This document shows, one piece after another, positions 9,184 to 18,524 of a DNA stretch of 20,762 nucleotides; position 1 is the stretch's first letter, and every line of letters starts with the position of its first letter. Position numbers and translations under genes: made by a program. Source of the stretch: a virus; the IMG/VR virus record IMGVR_UViG_3300017739_000153, positions 1 to 20,762 of that record. One strand, given 5' to 3'. The notes under the pieces were generated by a model. The model was given only the letters and a program-made list of their open reading frames with translations, did not search any database and was not told the origin of the DNA.

Positions 9184-9660
9184 TTAGTATTTAGCAAGTC
9201 TAGTGAACTTGTAAAAATGGTCACTACCCCAAACTAGGTTACCTTCCTTGTCTCGTCCTTGATCTGCACTATGTAACTCATCTCCAAATAGTATTATTTG
9301 AGAACTAACTACAGCACCACCCATGACACATTGCCCTTCTGCAAATAATCTACCTTCCCATCTATTGTCATATTCGACAAATAGCATGTCGCATCCTTGT
9401 CTTTTAGTTCCATCTTCACTATAATTTTCCATTAAAAAAGAGTCCTCCCTTATAAGAGACATTTTATGTCTCCCACTACGATAAGGTTTGTTGGGACCCT
9501 CTTTTCTGTAATAATTTTTTGAAGTATACCAAGTTTGATCTACATCACTATAGTCTATACCCCATTCTAATTCTACAGAGGCAAATCCTAAAGGATTAGA
9601 TTGTGCTTGGTATCTATTTGTCCAATGACCTAAAAGTGCATCACTAAAGTCAATCGTCAT
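9184..9660 (-). CDS. cpeT: CpeT/CpcT-family phycobilin lyase-like protein (158 aa)
   Basis: CpeT/CpcT proteins attach or handle bilin chromophores on phycobiliproteins; phage copies occur in many T4-like cyanophages. The family signature is clear: an early L-L-G-H-W-x-N segment (residues 9-15), E-N-Y near residue 79, then W-E-G-R-L-F (101-106), E-G-Q-C-V (108-112), A-D-Q-G-R-D (132-137) and V-W-G-S followed by F-Y-K-F-T-R (143-154). These match the conserved barrel strands of the family; phage members are shorter than host enzymes of about 200 residues. The start overlaps the last 11 bases of CP12, so the two are one translational unit under the late promoter at 9902-9909. Whether it is an active lyase cannot be seen from sequence. 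Confidence 0.85.
   Translation of the reverse strand: MTIDFSDALLGHWTNRYQAQSNPLGFASVELEWGIDYSDVDQTWYTSKNYYRKEGPNKPYRSGRHKMSLIREDSFLMENYSEDGTKRQGCDMLFVEYDNRWEGRLFAEGQCVMGGAVVSSQIILFGDELHSADQGRDKEGNLVWGSDHFYKFTRLAKY
9188..9194 (-). promoter_or_regulatory. Late promoter of gp5 (CTAAATA)
   Basis: CTAAATA on the minus strand, ending 21 bases before the gp5 ATG. It lies within the last codons of the upstream CpeT-like gene (Ala-Lys-Tyr-stop is written GCTAAATACTAA), so promoter and coding sequence share bases. Confidence 0.65.
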
Positions 9661-9909: not shown

Positions 9910-11308
9910 CTTGCATACTGTCTTTCAGGAGATTTAACTCTGTTACTAGAGATGATCCTGAAGTTTTATGCGAGACTGCTCCTATAATATAACGTCCACT
10001 ATACTTTTTGTCAACTTTTGTGCCACCAGCACCCTTTGTATTTGAGGGAATAATAATATTAACTCCGCAACCAGCATACAAATCTAAATTACCAGGAATG
10101 TTTACAACAAGTTGAACATTCTTTAAGGAATCTATACGCATCCATTGATATGCTTGGAGTTCTACTATTTGTTCATAATTTCTTTGAGGATTATTTTTAA
10201 ATTTAGGATCAAATATTTGATTTGGAATCATTTCATATCTAACACGTTTAGGAGTATTAACATATTCTCTAATTTCTTCATCAAGAAGTTGATTAGGATT
10301 TTTTGCTCCACTACCACTCATATGCTCCATCTTACCCCATAAATCTTTAATTTTATATTTGTAAGAATCTGCAGACAAGTCAGTGCTACTTCCAAATCTA
10401 GACCTAGTAATAAATGTGGGATCGAATCCTACGCTATATCCTGCAAAATTACCATGTCTTAGTCCCATTAAAAAGTTTCTCTCTTTAGGAAATGATACGC
10501 CAGTAATACTAAACTGAGCTTCAGATGGATTAGTAAATGCTTTAGGTGTATAAGTGTAAGTATACATTTTTACATCACCCATTTCAGTATTTGGATTAGT
10601 AGGTTTAGTTTTTTGCTTATTAGCAAGATTGATCATACTGTCTATAGACTTATAATGAAATCCTAATGCATTTTCAAAAAAGGCAAAACCATTTTGTAAT
10701 TGTTTACCTTTACCAGACTTACGAATACTTCGTTGTGACATCCAATAAATTAAATCAAAAGGTCTCCAATTAGGAGATATAAAAGTTTGTTTATTTAAAG
10801 TTTTTTCTAAGTATAGTTTTTTAGCAGAATTGATATATTTTTTACCCATTAAAGTTTTAATGATTTCAGTAGCTTCAGTTTTATTACTAAATATAGTCTC
10901 AGAATTACCAAATACATTCAATACTTCATTTCTAGTATATTCATCAGAAACACACTCAACAATAAAAACTTCATTACTTTGATTAGTTCTGACTCTTGCA
11001 TCAATTTGATATGATCTAAAGAAATAAGTTCTATCAACAATGCTAGTTTTAAGTTGTAATGCAAATTCTTCAGATCCTGTAAGAGATTGTAATATACCAG
11101 CAGAATCTTCAAGTACCAATCTCATTTCCATGCAAGTGGTAGAAATACTTTCATAGACTTCAAATCCTCTTACGAATGAAGATAAATCTGCATCACCCTG
11201 TTTAGTTGATTTTTTCTTACGATTCTTGTACATGAACAATTTAAAATCAACTTCACCAGTATTTGATCTTGATATAGAACCTACTCTATCTTGTATGACT
11301 TTGCTCAA
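9905..11308 (-). CDS. gp27: Baseplate hub protein, gp27-like (467 aa)
   Basis: In T4 a gp27 trimer holds gp5 and joins the tube to the baseplate. Supporting features are the hub-type segment W-R-P-F-D-L-I-Y-W-M-S near residue 181, a F-F-E-N-A-L-G-F-H-Y-K-S-I-D-S-M stretch typical of gp27/gpD-like hubs (near 209), and a C-terminal barrel ending Y-S-G-R-Y-I-I-G-A-V-S-H-K. It is somewhat longer than T4 gp27 (about 390 residues). The start is a TTG overlapping the stop of the 941-aa gene (TTGA); a GAGAGG ribosome site at 11318-11323, nine bases upstream, supports it, and the next in-frame ATG is 26 codons in. Its position between the tape-measure-like genes and gp5 fits. Confidence rests on pattern and context. 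Confidence 0.8.
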   Translation of the reverse strand: MSKVIQDRVGSISRSNTGEVDFKLFMYKNRKKKSTKQGDADLSSFVRGFEVYESISTTCMEMRLVLEDSAGILQSLTGSEEFALQLKTSIVDRTYFFRSYQIDARVRTNQSNEVFIVECVSDEYTRNEVLNVFGNSETIFSNKTEATEIIKTLMGKKYINSAKKLYLEKTLNKQTFISPNWRPFDLIYWMSQRSIRKSGKGKQLQNGFAFFENALGFHYKSIDSMINLANKQKTKPTNPNTEMGDVKMYTYTYTPKAFTNPSEAQFSITGVSFPKERNFLMGLRHGNFAGYSVGFDPTFITRSRFGSSTDLSADSYKYKIKDLWGKMEHMSGSGAKNPNQLLDEEIREYVNTPKRVRYEMIPNQIFDPKFKNNPQRNYEQIVELQAYQWMRIDSLKNVQLVVNIPGNLDLYAGCGVNIIIPSNTKGAGGTKVDKKYSGRYIIGAVSHKTSGSSLVTELNLLKDSMQV

Positions 11309-14130
11309 CTGAAGATACCTCTCAAAGGATTGTTAAATGAATTAAGAACAGCAACCGCAGTTCTTAGAACTGTTCCTGTTGTTCCACCAACGTTTGCAAA
11401 TGATCCACCACCTGCTTGTGCACCTAGTAAAGAACGTATACCTGCTTCTGCTTTTTGGATAAAGAGACGATTATTTCCATTAGATGATTCTACAGCAGAC
11501 AATGCCATCTGTACAATCTCAGTGGTTCTATTGTTAATTTCTCTCCTTGCTGCATTACGTTGCTCTGTGACTCTACGGATCCTTGCTTGCTCTTCATAAG
11601 TAGAGGCATTTCTTTTTGTTTTACCACTCTTAAACATAGAGTTATTAGCAGGTGTTGCTGATCCACCCATCATACCTAGGTTACCTAGAATATCTGCAGC
11701 TCCACCACTACCACCAACATTACCACCACCAAATGCTTCTCCTAAAGTTTCATTTAAATTCATATTTTTAAGGAAGTTGGCAAAACCAGCACCATCCATT
11801 CCAACCATAGGACGACCTCCACCACCAGTATCTGTCTTTGTAGACCTAGACATTGGGAATGATTTACCACCAAAAGGAGAAAGAATAGGTGTTTTACCAG
11901 AACCCTTTCCAACATAATCATAGTGACCACCATTAGGACCTAGTGCATATCCATATTTCCATCCATAGCGAGCACCATTTGCTCTCATCCATTGATGAGA
12001 AGATCCAGATAGATCGAGTCCTTCACCATATAAGTGTACAGAATTCTCATGTCCACCAACTTTTGAATTGTGTTTAATACTTCTACCACTACTTGCTACA
12101 TCTGTTGCACTAACTTGACCTTTAGAGTCCATCATCATCTGCATAAATGCAGACGCTGCAGGTTGTGATAAAACTACAGGACGACCATGAGCATCAGTAA
12201 CTCCTTTGATACCCCATCCTGTTCCTGTTTCTGGATGACCAGAAGGAATAACAGAAAGAGATCCAAGATTTGAAGCTATAGCTGTCTTTTTATCTCTCTT
12301 TCCCTCTTCAACGTCTAATACACTAGACATTTCAGAAGCACCTGCAGGTTGAGCACCTAACAGCATATTAAATACACCACCAAATAATCCAGCTTTTTTA
12401 GATTCTGGATCTTTAGGAATAGTAATTCCTTTATTAAGTAGATACTCTCCTACACCAACAAGACCTTTGTTTTGAATTAAAGCAACTGTAACAGGACCAC
12501 GACGACCAACTTGAGTATAGTAAAGACTATTTTTTAATTCCGCACCAGCAGTTTTATAATCACCTTTTTGAATAGCAGCCATCATCATTGGGAAGTCTTG
12601 ATACCACTGAGGACCCATATTAAATGTAAGATCAATCATTGCTGCTTTTTGCTGCAATGACATTTTGTCATAACCAGGTATATTTTGAGCAGCCCGCTTA
12701 TGATGTATATAATCCTTTTCAAATAACTGATTAGCGTATGCTTTACTGATAGTGTCAGGCATCTTAGATCCTGGTGTAACCAGATGTCCATAACCAATAG
12801 TAGGATGACCTTCTGAATCAATGTATTTGTTTAGTCTTAGTCCTTCATTTTCTTTGACCATTTTCTTGGCAAAACCATCAAGAACACCACCACCAGACAT
12901 GAAACCCATTGATGATGCTTCTGCTAGTCTTGAAGATAATAGACCAGGCATTTGTTTAGTTGCGGGTGTATCAAATGGAACTACAAATGCACTACCATCA
13001 GATTTTGTCGCAACGTACTCAGTTCCATGTCCAATAAAATCGGGTTTAGAACCATCTAGAGATACAGGATACCCTGACTGAGGACCAGAAATCCAACCAC
13101 CTTTAGCATACCCATTTAAATAGCCTCCTTTTGCAAATCCATAACTTTTTGTTTGACCTGTTTCTAAATAATGAATTAATTCATCAATTTCGCTTCCTTT
13201 TCCAAATAATTTATCAAAGAAGTTTAGATCCTCTTTTTGTTGTCGAAGATCTGCTATTCTTTGTTCTTTAGTTTGAGTTACCCCTTGGTCATCTACTTCT
13301 CCTATCCCTTCTTCTATTGCTCTTTCGTTTGCATCAACAGATCCAGGTAAAACTTTAGGTATGTATTTACCTGCAGTGAAAAGAGCTACCCCACCAGCAA
13401 TAGCAATTAACGGATGAGCTGCAAGTTTTGCTGCAGCAGTCATTAATCCTCTATTGAAGAATATTAGCACATTTTTGAATGTATTAACCATTCCTAAAGG
13501 ATTGGTGAGTAAACCAATTCCTAACCAAGCTGCACCCAACCCCTTTAATGCGGTGAAGAGACCTCCGATTCTTTCTCTAAGGGTAGATTCATCTGATAAT
13601 AAATCATACAATCCATTAATAGTATTATTAATGGCAAATTTTGACCATCCAGCTATAAATTTAAAAACCTTTCCAAGAGTTTCTATAATTGATACTACCT
13701 TATCTTGATTTTCTGGATTAGAAAGCCATTTAAGAGCTGGAAGAAGTATAGCAAATTTTAGGAATGACCCAATTAGATTCATCAAAGATTCCATGAAACT
13801 AGGAAGCTTTCCTTTGAAGAGTGAATCAAAACCTTTAAATTTCTTTATTTTTTCGGGTTTTTGGAAAACTGGTTTAAATGTTTGTTTTGCTCTTTGTCTT
13901 TCTGCTTCTAATAAAGATAACTGTGATGTTCTGATATCTTTTACAACTGCACCTAAAGAATTTACTGTTGATCCTAATCTATTAGTTGCAGTTGTCTGCA
14001 ATTTAATAGTTTTAGTTAACTGTACATTCTTCCTCGAACTACGAGTCGCAGCTCCACCTCGTGTTTGACCACCATCGGGATCTACGAACTTGTAAAAATT
14101 AATTTTGGCACCTGTTTTATTTAATGCCAT
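11305..14130 (-). CDS. Tape-measure-like tail protein with lysozyme and M15 peptidase domains (941 aa)
   Basis: The N-terminus (ALNKTGAKINFYKFVDPDGG) and the hydrophobic helical region (about 110-260) parallel the neighbouring 837-aa protein, so the two are paralogues. Residues about 421-566 are a T4-lysozyme (GH24) domain: N-E-G-L-R-L-N-K-Y-I-D-S-E-G-H-P-T-I-G-Y-G-H aligns with the T4 enzyme, with the catalytic triad as E429, D438 and T444. Residues about 636-742 look like a zinc M15-type peptidase: S-V-H-L-Y-G-E-G-L-D-L gives H699 and D706, and G-G-H-Y-D-Y gives H736. It should therefore cut both sugar and peptide bonds of host peptidoglycan during injection. The ATG has a GAGGTG ribosome site four bases upstream, written in the last codons of the previous gene. 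T4 gp29 is the nearest functional parallel. Confidence 0.85.
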   Translation of the reverse strand: MALNKTGAKINFYKFVDPDGGQTRGGAATRSSRKNVQLTKTIKLQTTATNRLGSTVNSLGAVVKDIRTSQLSLLEAERQRAKQTFKPVFQKPEKIKKFKGFDSLFKGKLPSFMESLMNLIGSFLKFAILLPALKWLSNPENQDKVVSIIETLGKVFKFIAGWSKFAINNTINGLYDLLSDESTLRERIGGLFTALKGLGAAWLGIGLLTNPLGMVNTFKNVLIFFNRGLMTAAAKLAAHPLIAIAGGVALFTAGKYIPKVLPGSVDANERAIEEGIGEVDDQGVTQTKEQRIADLRQQKEDLNFFDKLFGKGSEIDELIHYLETGQTKSYGFAKGGYLNGYAKGGWISGPQSGYPVSLDGSKPDFIGHGTEYVATKSDGSAFVVPFDTPATKQMPGLLSSRLAEASSMGFMSGGGVLDGFAKKMVKENEGLRLNKYIDSEGHPTIGYGHLVTPGSKMPDTISKAYANQLFEKDYIHHKRAAQNIPGYDKMSLQQKAAMIDLTFNMGPQWYQDFPMMMAAIQKGDYKTAGAELKNSLYYTQVGRRGPVTVALIQNKGLVGVGEYLLNKGITIPKDPESKKAGLFGGVFNMLLGAQPAGASEMSSVLDVEEGKRDKKTAIASNLGSLSVIPSGHPETGTGWGIKGVTDAHGRPVVLSQPAASAFMQMMMDSKGQVSATDVASSGRSIKHNSKVGGHENSVHLYGEGLDLSGSSHQWMRANGARYGWKYGYALGPNGGHYDYVGKGSGKTPILSPFGGKSFPMSRSTKTDTGGGGRPMVGMDGAGFANFLKNMNLNETLGEAFGGGNVGGSGGAADILGNLGMMGGSATPANNSMFKSGKTKRNASTYEEQARIRRVTEQRNAARREINNRTTEIVQMALSAVESSNGNNRLFIQKAEAGIRSLLGAQAGGGSFANVGGTTGTVLRTAVAVLNSFNNPLRGIFS

Positions 14131-14133
14131 TTA

Positions 14134-16647
14134 TCACCTCGATTGTGTAGAAGATGGTGCAACAAGATAAGTATCACCGCTATTTATAGGAACTGGAGTA
14201 GGTGCAGCAATTAACTTCTCAACAATTAAAGGAACTGGTAAGAATTCTATAGCAGTTTGCATAGCATATTCAGCGTTGAACTTATTATTACGAAGTAATG
14301 ATCTACCCTTATCCAATACACCTAAGATTCTAGGATCGACTCCTAACTCAGGTGCTAACTCTCTCAATCCTTGCGTTACATCACCAGATTGATGACCAGC
14401 AAGTATAGCATTGTATATACCTTTCATACCTGCTCTATCTGCTACAGATCCTATGGCATTCATAGCAGAGAACTGATATCCTTCTGCACCAAGAATCTTA
14501 GCCATGCCAGGTATATTCATAATATTAGGAACATTCTTTAAAAGACCTTGAACACCAGGTACTGCTCCTAAAATACCTTGTAATTGATTCTTCTCTAACC
14601 AGTTACCAAAATTCTCAATACCACCTGATAAACCTGGCATCATACCAACGACTTCACCAATAGCACCACCCATATTACCACCTAAGAGTTGCATACCAAT
14701 TCTACCCATTTTACTGCTAGTAACATTATTATACAAATTAGAAAAAGTTCCACTCAGTCTCCCAAAGAGATTGGCACCCTTAGTATAAAGATTAGAAATA
14801 CCTCGACCAAACTTACTCATACGCAAGTTCATCAACCAGTTTGGAGTGTCAACTACTGATCTTGCAGTAGAACCAATCGCAGCAAAATTACCTACAGCAC
14901 CAATACCACTGGTAATAGCACCCATAATATTTCCTTGAGATAAGGCAGTAACAGCGTTTATTGCTTGAACTATAGGACCAACGCCAGGAATAAATGATAA
15001 CGCTGTATTTACTATAGGATTACTAACAACCTTAACAGCTGTATTAACAACACCACTAACTACATTTGATACAGTGTTAACAACACCGCTAACTGCTCTT
15101 CCAATACTTTTAACCAAACCACCTATGAATAACTGAGGTAATTCACCACCGTGCTCAAGACCAAAGAACCCTAAACCAAATAAACCTTTTTTCTTGGTTT
15201 CTGGTTTCTTATAATTTATTTCGGGTAATTTTTGAGGTGTTTCAGTAAGTTTCTTTGAATAATCAAGTGCTGCTGTTAATTTTTCAACTTTAGGTTTATC
15301 AGGACCTACAAAAATATTACCAAATCCTAATGTCAGTGTATTTTGCCACCAATTTAAACCTTTTTTACTATTCTCCTTAGCTAACTCATCTTCATAGTGT
15401 TTGACTGTTGCCTCACTACCTTCTCTTAAAAATCTCTCTTGAACCCCCTCCTGCATCTTCTTTTCTTGCGATCTCTTTAGGGGATCGAAGATAAGCGTAT
15501 CAGTAATTTTATTAAGACTCCACTCTGCAGCCATAGTAACAGGTAGAGCAAGAAGACCAGGACCAGGTTTTACATTTTTGATATTTTTAGCTATTCCTGA
15601 GGTCACTGATGGTTTAATACCACCAGTTACATTAGGTTTTTTCTTAAGAAGATTAGTAAAGAAATTACCAGATGGTTTAACACCACCACTTACAGTAGGT
15701 TTCTTTTTAAATGCATTAGTAATTTGTTTAACAAGACTTGGTTTTGAACCTGATCCTGAGATAGGTGTTTTGGGTTTTAATTTATTGAAAAACTCACGAA
15801 CGCTTCTCAAAGGACCTGTTGATGCTCCACCACTGGTAGTTGGTACCTTTCTACCTCTATTAAATAGACCTTTATTCTTAGGATTGATTTTCTTAGTAAA
15901 ACCCTTGGGTAAACATCCCTTTGCTCTACTAAGAACACCAGCACCACTGATAATATTTGCTAATAATATGATATCAGTAATAATGCTGAATGGATTCATC
16001 AGGTATTTCAACCCAATGATACCTACCATCATTTTACCAAGACCCTCTACTCTTCCAAGGAAAGAAGATTCACTACCAAATAGTTGATCCATACCTCCCA
16101 GAAGATTATCTCCGATAATCCACTTACCAAAACCATATATTTTTTCAAATACAAAAGAGGTTTTTTCTAAAAATGTAGATAATGCTTCTATATTTTTCTC
16201 ATCTTCTGCCCATTTAAGCAGATCATTCATTAATGCAAGAGCACCAATCTTTATAAAAAGATCAACAAATGGTTGTAATGCTTTGCCAAGCCATCCAAAT
16301 GTGCCCTTAAGGAAACTTCCAAAGTCCTTTGGTTTATATTTTATTTTACTTTTCTTTTTAAAATATTCTGATAAATTCTTCTTTCCTGCAATTCTTTCTT
16401 GGAGGTTCTCTGCCTCCATATCCATTTGTCTTCTTTTTTCCCTTCTTTCTGCTATTTCAGCTCTATCAGCTGCCTTTACTCTTAAATTTGTAATTTTGTT
16501 TATATCTACAACCTGAGTACCTATACCAGTTATAGCTATTCCTAATCTATTTGAAGAAAGCAACGATTGTCTGGCTGCAGCAATTTCTGGAGCAGTTGAT
16601 TTACCTGCACCAGGATTAACAAACTTGTAGACTTGTAACTTAGCCAT
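14134..16647 (-). CDS. Tape-measure-like structural protein (837 aa)
   Basis: The protein starts MAKLQVYKFVNPGAGKS, matching the KINFYKFVDPDGG start of its neighbour. Residues about 45-105 are a charged helical stretch (AERREKRRQMDMEAENL). Residues about 110-240 form hydrophobic helices. A Lys/Pro/Gly linker at 288-347 holds three diverged copies of a K-K-K-P-x-V-x-G-G-x-K-P-S unit. From about 505 there is a long Gly/Val/Ala-rich hydrophobic region with V-S-G-V-V-N-T repeats, typical of tape-measure proteins whose segments insert into membranes. No enzyme motif is visible. Its position directly after the gp26 frameshift pair, the slot of a tape measure behind its chaperones, supports a tape-measure or hub role (T4 gp29 slot). 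I cannot tell which of the two paralogues sets tail length. Confidence 0.75.
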   Translation of the reverse strand: MAKLQVYKFVNPGAGKSTAPEIAAARQSLLSSNRLGIAITGIGTQVVDINKITNLRVKAADRAEIAERREKRRQMDMEAENLQERIAGKKNLSEYFKKKSKIKYKPKDFGSFLKGTFGWLGKALQPFVDLFIKIGALALMNDLLKWAEDEKNIEALSTFLEKTSFVFEKIYGFGKWIIGDNLLGGMDQLFGSESSFLGRVEGLGKMMVGIIGLKYLMNPFSIITDIILLANIISGAGVLSRAKGCLPKGFTKKINPKNKGLFNRGRKVPTTSGGASTGPLRSVREFFNKLKPKTPISGSGSKPSLVKQITNAFKKKPTVSGGVKPSGNFFTNLLKKKPNVTGGIKPSVTSGIAKNIKNVKPGPGLLALPVTMAAEWSLNKITDTLIFDPLKRSQEKKMQEGVQERFLREGSEATVKHYEDELAKENSKKGLNWWQNTLTLGFGNIFVGPDKPKVEKLTAALDYSKKLTETPQKLPEINYKKPETKKKGLFGLGFFGLEHGGELPQLFIGGLVKSIGRAVSGVVNTVSNVVSGVVNTAVKVVSNPIVNTALSFIPGVGPIVQAINAVTALSQGNIMGAITSGIGAVGNFAAIGSTARSVVDTPNWLMNLRMSKFGRGISNLYTKGANLFGRLSGTFSNLYNNVTSSKMGRIGMQLLGGNMGGAIGEVVGMMPGLSGGIENFGNWLEKNQLQGILGAVPGVQGLLKNVPNIMNIPGMAKILGAEGYQFSAMNAIGSVADRAGMKGIYNAILAGHQSGDVTQGLRELAPELGVDPRILGVLDKGRSLLRNNKFNAEYAMQTAIEFLPVPLIVEKLIAAPTPVPINSGDTYLVAPSSTQSR
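14181..14188 (-). promoter_or_regulatory. Possible late promoter inside the 837-aa gene (TATAAATA)
   Basis: A perfect TATAAATA on the minus strand, 50 bases upstream of the 941-aa ATG and within the end of the 837-aa coding region (codons for Pro-Ile-Asn-Ser). The spacing is longer than for the other late promoters, so it may be chance. Confidence 0.4.
15607..15786 (-). repeat. Lys/Pro/Gly repeat segment in the 837-aa gene
   Basis: Three diverged copies of a K-x-K-P-x-x-x-x-G-x-x-K-P-S unit lie at residues 288-304, 313-326 and 334-347. The second and third copies are closest (FKKKPTVSGGVKPS and LKKKPNVTGGIKPS). They look like a flexible linker expanded by duplication. Confidence 0.65.
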
Positions 16648-16650
16648 TTA

Positions 16651-16841
16651 CTATTGTGCTTGTTGCTCCTTCATTCGTTTTTCTTCCTCTTTTAGGAAAT
16701 TGACCAACATGTTGACATACAACTCCTTTTCCCAAGGCATGAGATTGTCAATATATTGCATATCCCATTTATGATGATGAATTAAAGCAAAATTGCTTTC
16801 ATAATAGCCTTTTAGGTCTTGATGAAGGAGTGCTATGCGAA
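16651..16841 (-). CDS. gp26 -1 frameshift extension (62 codons, no start of its own)
   Basis: In the -1 frame relative to gp26, an open frame begins at the slippery site and runs 62 codons (R-I-A-L-L-H-Q-D-L-K-G-Y-Y at its start) to a TAG at 16651-16653, three bases before the ATG of the 837-aa gene. It contains H-H-H-K-W-D, then M-P-W-E-K-E-L-Y-V-N-M-L-V-N-F-L, and ends in a charged helix (KEEEKRMKEQQAQ). This style is common at the end of frameshifted tail-assembly chaperones. The first in-frame ATG is 26 codons in and leaves only a fragment, so expression as a gp26 fusion of about 297 residues is the simplest reading. In T4, gp26 is followed by the separate hub-assembly gene 51, which may be the functional parallel. 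Confidence 0.7.
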
Positions 16842-17543
16842 AAAAGACGCTAATCCTTCCAGAACTACTTCACTTTCAACACTTGTATTAGGATTAGTAA
16901 CTGTAACGGTATGAGACAGTTTAGGCATAGTTTCAAAAAACTTTTGAATCATAGTGAACTGTTTAGTGTCCATTGAATCAAAAAATTCAAGAATCTCTTT
17001 TTTAGGTGTATCTGCACAATCATATACTTGTTCAGTATCAGAGATTGTTTCGAGACAAGTTGCTGCCATATCAAAAACCTGATCCATACCAGCTTCCTCA
17101 CCAGTAAAGTTCATTTGGATAAAAGTATCCAGTTTTGGATATCCCATAGTAATAGTCACTTCATCAGAAATCTTCATATCCTTCTTATGTCCTCTAGTTT
17201 TAGAGACTTTGATTTGATCCAAAGGAATTTCGACTTCGACAGGAGTTTCTCCATCATCAGGGCAAATTACTGATAGTTTAATAGTTTCACCAACAGATTT
17301 AGTTCTAATCTGTAGAAAAACGTATTCTATATCAAATGTTGGTAGTTTATCAACATCTTTAATATCAGTACATGCTGTAATAATGTCTGTGACTGCTGTA
17401 ATTAGTTCTGACTGTTCTCCAGATTCAGTTGCTAGTAGTAGAAGTTTCTCTTCTTTTACCAAGAAAGGTCTGTAATTTACAGTCCTTCCATCAGAAGGCA
17501 ACTTAATTTTGTACTTGGGTACATTCAGTTTTGGTAATGCCAT
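16833..17543 (-). CDS. gp26: Baseplate hub/tail-assembly protein gp26 (236 aa)
   Basis: The segment M-A-L-P-K-L-N-V-P-K-Y-K-I at the start, with R-P-F-L-V-K-E-E-K-L-L-L-L-A about 25 residues later, is the hallmark of the T4 gp26 family. In T4, gp26 is needed to build the baseplate hub. The start is set at the ATG 17541-17543 because the family begins MALPKLN; a TTG 15 bases upstream is also possible. A late promoter CTAAATA lies 26 bases before this ATG. The protein ends at TAG 16833-16835, and the slippery heptamer lies two codons before the stop. By position (just before tape-measure-like genes) and by the frameshift it behaves like the short form of a tail-assembly chaperone pair. Confidence 0.85.
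   Translation of the reverse strand: MALPKLNVPKYKIKLPSDGRTVNYRPFLVKEEKLLLLATESGEQSELITAVTDIITACTDIKDVDKLPTFDIEYVFLQIRTKSVGETIKLSVICPDDGETPVEVEIPLDQIKVSKTRGHKKDMKISDEVTITMGYPKLDTFIQMNFTGEEAGMDQVFDMAATCLETISDTEQVYDCADTPKKEILEFFDSMDTKQFTMIQKFFETMPKLSHTVTVTNPNTSVESEVVLEGLASFFA
16839..16845 (-). other. Slippery heptamer T_TTT_TTC for -1 frameshift
   Basis: On the minus strand gp26 reads TCT TTT TTC GCA TAG. The heptamer T TTT TTC fits the X XXY YYZ rule in the zero frame; both codons are Phe and one tRNA can re-pair after slipping back one base. The -1 frame then stays open for 62 codons. I see no compelling downstream hairpin by eye. Confidence 0.7.
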
Positions 17544-17651: not shown

Positions 17652-18524
17652 TTAGAAGTCTCCTACTGAATTGTTAACCAACTGAGGTAAGAACTCAGCA
17701 CTCTGTGAAGTATTTACTCTGTGTTTGTATCTTCCATCATCAGTGAAGTCATCTTCAACAGCAACACGGTATCTTTCATATAAAAATCCAACAGTCAGAG
17801 TAGTTACTCTTGAAGTGTCATTGTTTAATTGAATAGACCCTATATTATATGGAAATAAATTACGAATCTCATACATCGCTGTCACTTTATGTTTTTTAAA
17901 ATTATATATTGGATCTCCTGTGTTTTTATTGATAAAACCTAGCATCTTTGCATCTGTATTAACATATTCACCTCCACCTCTCTCCCATTTGTAAATTCTC
18001 AAGGAAGGACAAATATAATTATCATAAAATTCTGTATATTGATTTGCATCAGGAGCCATTCTAGATACCCATCTCTCAAAGAATATACGAGTCTGTTGAG
18101 ATTTAGGCATGATGAAGGTCATATTCAACTGACTATATGCTGCAGAAGTTGCATATTTAACAGCAGTACCAACGTTTTGAACTGCTCCAGTTGTTACTTG
18201 TTTACTAGGTAGGTTAACTGATTGACAATATAAATTTAATAAATTTCTCATGTTACCTACACCAGGATCCAATCTCGTAGTTTTACTTCCTCCCTGTATA
18301 GTGAGATTGTTTTGTAAAATTCTTGGTGCTGCAAAATGAACCGAAAATAAGTTACCTAAACTCGGTGATTGATCATACTGCTTACTAAACGCAAGAAATT
18401 CTTGGTAAGAAGGATATGCAGCTTCTTCCTTGTTTTGAAGTCCACTACCACCACCAGGATTACTTCCTGTTGTTATTGTATTAACTGCACCTAGAACGCC
18501 TGCAAATAATGGTCCTAAAATCAT
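17652..18524 (-). CDS. gp54: Baseplate tail-tube initiator, gp54-like (290 aa)
   Basis: In T4, gp54 joins gp48 on the baseplate and nucleates tail-tube polymerisation; it shares the tube-protein fold. Here the protein has a Gly-rich N-terminus (ILGPLFAGVLGAVNTI), a P-S-L-G-N-L-F-S-V-H-F strand, a L-N-L-Y-C-Q-S-V-N-L-P-S-K-Q segment (near residue 97) and a C-terminal T-S-R-V-T-T-L-T-V-G-F-L-Y-E-R-Y stretch. These are the alternating strand patterns of tube-type proteins in which a Y-x-x-x-x-L-P segment is common. Length is close to T4 gp54 (about 320). Its ATG overlaps the gp4 stop by one base (TAATG), with an AGGAG ribosome site 11 bases upstream. A gp48-like or tube-like identity is the alternative; the gp48 homologue on the plus strand makes gp54 the better fit. 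Confidence 0.78.
   Translation of the reverse strand: MILGPLFAGVLGAVNTITTGSNPGGGSGLQNKEEAAYPSYQEFLAFSKQYDQSPSLGNLFSVHFAAPRILQNNLTIQGGSKTTRLDPGVGNMRNLLNLYCQSVNLPSKQVTTGAVQNVGTAVKYATSAAYSQLNMTFIMPKSQQTRIFFERWVSRMAPDANQYTEFYDNYICPSLRIYKWERGGGEYVNTDAKMLGFINKNTGDPIYNFKKHKVTAMYEIRNLFPYNIGSIQLNNDTSRVTTLTVGFLYERYRVAVEDDFTDDGRYKHRVNTSQSAEFLPQLVNNSVGDF

Follow-up and report, generated by a model that had tools for sequence, protein, structure and literature searches.

The gp26 locus of a T4-like cyanophage (Kyanoviridae type) is, to judge from its sequence, very probably a tail assembly chaperone (TAC) gene of the lambda G/G-T type, in which a −1 slip on the heptamer T TTT TTC would yield a second, longer product, and the gp26 protein probably helps to build the tail. 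The locus lies in the 20.8-kb record IMGVR_UViG_3300017739_000153, a genome fragment of an uncultivated cyanobacterial virus, which was analysed over its whole length of 20,762 nucleotides (hereafter the window) and in which a single place, within what is a fragment, matches gp26.

Reading frames and neighbouring genes

As read directly from the sequence, gp26 runs on the minus strand from an ATG at 17543 to a TAG at 16835-16833, and its last codons are GCG TCT TTT TTC GCA TAG, so that the heptamer stands in the X XXY YYZ phase at 16845-16839 (Table 1). A preliminary description of this DNA had claimed such an in-phase heptamer at this place, followed by a −1 frame open for 62 codons to within three bases of the next gene, and both claims hold: the extension begins at CGC (16839), reaches its TAG at 16653-16651, gives 62 residues and a fusion of 297 aa, and is followed three bases on by the ATG of the next gene at 16647. 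The description erred in placing the heptamer two codons before the gp26 stop, as one sense codon (GCA) lies between the heptamer and the TAG. The predicted junction peptide of the fusion of gp26 and extension is LEGLASFFRIALLHQDLK, and a peptide spanning the junction would be expected around LEGLASFFRIAL.

Table 1. Features of the gp26 locus and its flanking genes in the window.
Feature	Position	Strand	Basis
gp26 (PF12322), short form TAC-N, 236 aa	16833..17543	-	Pfam T4_baseplate E=3e-76, phrog_150
Slippery heptamer T TTT TTC	16839..16845	-	in −1 frameshift phase, conserved
GGAAGGA, Shine-Dalgarno-like purine tract, putative dnaX-like stimulator	16854..16860	-	8 nt before heptamer
−1 frame extension, 62 aa + stop, C-terminal domain of TAC-NC	16651..16839	-	phrog_634, dN/dS, T4 gp51 alignment
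837-aa gene, candidate tape-measure-like chaperone client	14134..16647	-	position, weak TMP match; PHROGs/RefSeq label 'endolysin'
Tail tube protein gene, directly upstream of gp26	17652..18524	-	phrog_45 tail tube E=3e-55

Tail tube, gp26, extension and a large gene resembling that of a tape measure protein (TMP) follow one another in this order, and in most relatives the stop of the extension overlaps the start of the next gene. The 837-aa product of the large gene has a weak match to a TMP family. Its candidacy as a homologue of T4 gp29 was dropped, since hhalign of the two proteins gave no match. In phiM12 and HTVC008M, TMP annotations stand just downstream of the chaperone locus, one gene further on. 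The products of the 837-aa gene and of the gene at 11305-14130 are related over some 220 residues at the N-terminus (blastp 27%, E=3e-14). The second product has in addition a phage lysozyme domain and a weakly matching peptidase M15 domain, and the two, though labelled endolysin, look like tail proteins. Also placed among the tail genes is a gene for a CpeT-like antenna protein (9184-9660); as an auxiliary metabolic gene it speaks for a cyanobacterial host.

Relationship to T4 gp26, T4 gp51 and other chaperones

The window's gp26 matches PF12322 (T4_baseplate) with 256 bits, against a cut-off of 24.5, over profile positions 2-219 of 219, and the extension matches phrog_634, 'baseplate hub assembly catalyst', which is the gp51 of cyanophage records. 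T4 gp26 and T4 gp51 are both members of PF12322 and are paralogues; phrog_634 is matched by the C-terminal part of T4 gp51 and not by T4 gp26. Profile alignment takes T4 gp26 through to the end of the window's short form (E=1.4e-20), and residues 1-249 of T4 gp51 align to residues 1-290 of the virtual fusion, across the slip junction (hhalign E=1.6e-17). This end-to-end alignment through the junction marks gp26 as the short form, TAC-N, and the fusion as the long form, TAC-NC, and lends support to the initial proposal that gp26 plus extension (297 aa) is a long form and gp26 a tail-assembly chaperone. The extension alone had been proposed as the counterpart of T4 gp51; that correspondence stands in refined form, for T4 gp26 and gp51 being paralogues, it is the fusion in its entirety, with both the gp26-like domain and the extension, to which T4 gp51 corresponds.

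The same profile alignments suggest that what T4 achieves with two genes, cyanophages achieve with a single gene and a slip. In T4 the short and long forms come from two separate, divergently oriented genes without a heptamer, whereas the window has one gene with a slip site, its extension being in the −1 frame relative to gp26 with no continuous long open reading frame. The arrangement is like that of lambda G/G-T, in which a short product is accompanied by a long product of −1 frameshifting and the pair sits between the tail tube and tape measure genes, a position that would be the same here if the 837-aa gene encodes a tape measure protein. It is unlike lambda in having no sequence similarity to G/G-T among the families scanned, and in its slip site, T TTT TTC here and G GGA AAG in lambda.

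A predicted structure of gp26 (pLDDT 86) has as its top match among solved structures the HK97 tail assembly chaperone 2ob9 (83 residues, rmsd 3.9) with a Z of 7.7, which is under 8, a level at which a common arrangement could account for it, so that we take this model-based likeness as supportive; 3fgx comes second (Z 6.6), followed by unrelated chains at Z 4.7 and less. Sequence search found no relatives in the PDB, and a model of a T4-type gp51 gave no usable PDB structure match. T4 gp26 and gp51 have been listed as hub assembly chaperones, gp51 being required and absent from the particle (PMC3004832), which fits the chaperone role proposed here.

The extension and its start codons

Comparisons were made on 73 distinct sequences of gp26 plus extension, of Kyanoviridae type, drawn from 80 IMG/VR loci and phage records. 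Across this set the −1 frame of the extension has no stops, as against 404 and 340 in the other two frames, and its median dN/dS is 0.12, far below 1, whereas the shifted frames give about 1.0 and 2.4. Judged by its substitutions, a check that the preliminary description had proposed, the extension evolves as a protein under purifying selection.

No ATG, GTG or TTG lies upstream of the slip site in the −1 frame of the window, and the first start codon within the extension, ATG 16761, comes 28 codons in and would lose nearly half of it. The first start codon takes 11 combinations of place and codon across the 73 sequences and lies upstream of the slip site in none, bearing out the earlier statement that the extension has no plausible start of its own. 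It would follow that the extension is very unlikely to be a separate small gene (gp51), translated independently from a start codon of its own or by ribosomes that reinitiate past the gp26 stop, although RefSeq annotates it as a separate gp51 CDS and the gp26 stop overlaps a −1 frame ATG (TAATG/TGATG) in the distant phages KVP40, RL2RES, Yut2 and phiM12 (L112, L098, L095, L125), where reinitiation could yield free extension alongside the fusion. The annotated gp51 starts vary between phages, public CDS lengths ranging from 61 aa in P-RSM4 to 31 aa in P-SSM7, with none annotated in ACG-2014d and S-CAM4, and the conserved residues of the extension begin ahead of these starts. On the separate-gene reading, moreover, the heptamer would be free to vary and a natural fusion such as T4 gp51 would not be expected. 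With no conserved start codon in 73 sequences, a separate gene with its own start was rejected, and because first start codons are scattered across the extension, the gp51 genes in public records look like annotation artefacts.

Conservation of the slip site

Twelve genes of the window contain 25 in-phase X XXY YYZ heptamers, and that of gp26 alone is near a stop; the −1 frame after it is open for 64 codons, as against at most 21 for the remaining ones. A heptamer as close to the stop as in gp26 arises under codon shuffling with P=0.015, and its −1 open stretch under base shuffling with P=0.008.

Conservation is decisive and confirms the heptamer as real. The slip site is TTTTTTC in 72 of the 73 distinct loci and TTTTTTT, still slippery, in the remaining one (Melnitz-3). 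When synonymous changes were counted on a tree of gp26 DNA, over 69 degenerate codon columns with a conserved amino acid, the TTT codon of the slip site had none, as did no other column, and the TTC that follows it had one. The 32 two-fold degenerate columns of gp26 have a mean of 8.2 synonymous changes, and its remaining Phe columns have 2 to 16. The first base of the heptamer is constantly T although the Ser codon that supplies it alternates between TCT and AGT. The heptamer is therefore kept at the synonymous level in 73/73 loci, which was the first check suggested for it.

A conserved T run would also be expected if the fusion arose by transcriptional rather than ribosomal slippage, with the same protein as its result. 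We consider this very unlikely, and slightly more so than a separate gene. A run of 6 T is short for slippage by bacterial polymerase, the run mostly ends in C, and in 72/73 loci it has gained no further T; it also keeps a constant codon phase, and an SD-like tract such as the one upstream (Table 1) would act on ribosomes, not polymerase. In one genome a gp51-like gene broken by a sequencing error, or decayed through a real frameshift mutation, would presumably resemble this locus, but such an origin is already refuted, since the arrangement recurs in 73 distinct sequences, among them those of isolates, and both of its parts are under strong purifying selection; we give this origin next to no weight.

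Upstream and downstream elements

In 67 of the 73 sequences the heptamer is preceded, at a spacing of 8-10 nt, by a Shine-Dalgarno (SD)-like core (GGAGG, GAGGG, AAGGG or AAGGA). The Glu codon within the tract is GAG in 44/71 cases, compared with 393/1703 elsewhere, and where it is GAA it is followed by GGG in 18/27, while GAG is never followed by GGG (the sequences being related, p-values for these codon statistics are indicative only). A purine SD core thus seems to be retained via differing codon pairs, and conservation of the tract appears to exceed what the Glu-Gly dipeptide demands. At the same spacing, synonymous shuffles form predicted duplexes with the 16S tail that are 1-2 kcal/mol weaker than the duplex of the tract. 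S-RSM4 (L088:3150-3210) and S-CAM4 (L090:3150-3210) have T TTT TTC and have lost the SD-like tract (TCTGGT and ACTGGA, respectively). The combination of a homopolymer slip heptamer with an SD-like tract is also that of E. coli dnaX, in which the SD is needed for frameshifting (PMC5600365); the tract lies about 10 nt upstream in dnaX and 8 nt upstream in the window, and dnaX has a strong downstream stem-loop, which the window lacks.

Neither a stem-loop nor a pseudoknot was found downstream of the heptamer in the window (z 0.35), nor were consensus base pairs found there in the window's clade, and the lack of structure in the window is a point against the proposed slip. In a sister clade, A1 (e.g. 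L038:2180-2193), the palindromic GGTCCATATGGACC would form a hairpin, GGUCC-AUAU-GGACC, 11 nt past the heptamer, which is confined to this one Kyanoviridae-type clade. Both-sided changes occur at 4/5 of its pairs (e.g. GATCC/GGATC and GGTTC/GAACC). Much of this pairing appears to follow from the encoded V-H-M-D, and because the excess is small once the protein is held constant (4.44 vs 3.99 pairs of 5), the covariation is suggestive at most.

Distribution among T4-like phages

Further searches also found the T6 slip site in distant groups with a single gene, namely in KVP40, CC2, Ci1, phiWae14, Yut2, pf16, RL2RES, ORM_20, phiM12 and HTVC008M, as well as in MED4-213, S-CRM01 and marine contigs. 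A T-type heptamer is absent from the end of gp26 in every two-gene phage examined. The −1 open run downstream of T4 gp26 was disregarded, as it is the neighbouring gene 25.

In RB43 (L103:3001-4294) a long gp51-like gene (247 aa) comes first and a short gp26-like gene (185 aa) follows, in tandem on one strand, possibly an intermediate between the frameshift gene and the head-to-head pair of T4; an unrooted tree of gp26, gp51 and frameshift forms, with long RB43 branches, gives no order of events. The Ackermannviridae-like CBA120 (L097:4768-4830) and K474 (L094:4660-4730) have a −1 extension with the conserved MPWxL motif and no T6 heptamer, which counts against the reading proposed here, and K474 has TAATGATG at the gp26 stop.

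We tentatively suggest, at somewhat less than even confidence, that in the window's clade slippage is driven by the heptamer and the upstream SD-like element alone, without RNA structure, and that the sister clade added the GGUCC-AUAU-GGACC hairpin. On this view stimulators would be exchanged around a T6C site that is constant in most T4-like phages, and the Tevenvirinae would have given up the whole device in favour of gene duplication.

Discussion

In the mechanism that we propose, the majority of ribosomes would terminate at the TAG at 16835 and release the 236-aa short form, gp26. A minority, assisted by the SD-like GGAAGGA upstream, would slip one base back on T TTT TTC, where both tRNA-Phe could re-pair, and would read 62 further codons to give a long form of 297 aa that is equivalent to T4 gp51. 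If lambda is a guide, the tape measure protein would be coated with many copies of the short form and a few of the long form, and the tail domain of the long form may contact or recruit subunits of the tail tube or hub.

Vladimirov, Gautam & Davidson reportedly identified, in Virology in 2022 (566:9-15, doi 10.1016/j.virol.2021.11.003), the tail assembly chaperones of T4-like phages, these being genes 26/51 in T4, with frameshifting in several other T4-like groups. That identification makes the earlier reading of this locus right but largely known, and the locus is an instance of it. The PRFect paper describes some T4-like phages with one short and one long TAC gene and no frameshifting, citing Vladimirov et al. 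2022 (PMC10885494), and the Adele paper cites the same work for poly-T slip sites in the TAC-N genes of T4-like phages (PMC12846349). One Acinetobacter phage record labels gp26, gp51 and gp28 as tape measure protein assembly chaperones. Possibly new details are the SD-like element before the heptamer and the hairpin restricted to another clade, as we found no description of an SD-like stimulator or of turnover of stimulators.

For hundreds of cyanophage genomes the finding offers a correction of annotation, the 'baseplate hub gp26' and 'gp51' being one chaperone gene with a slip site, and the gp51 starts in databases being arbitrary. The locus also provides a putative frameshift cassette of marine viral origin that lends itself to testing. 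Lastly, T4 gp26 and gp51, which have long been treated as proteins of the baseplate hub or of hub assembly, are tied in this way to the general tail assembly chaperone system.
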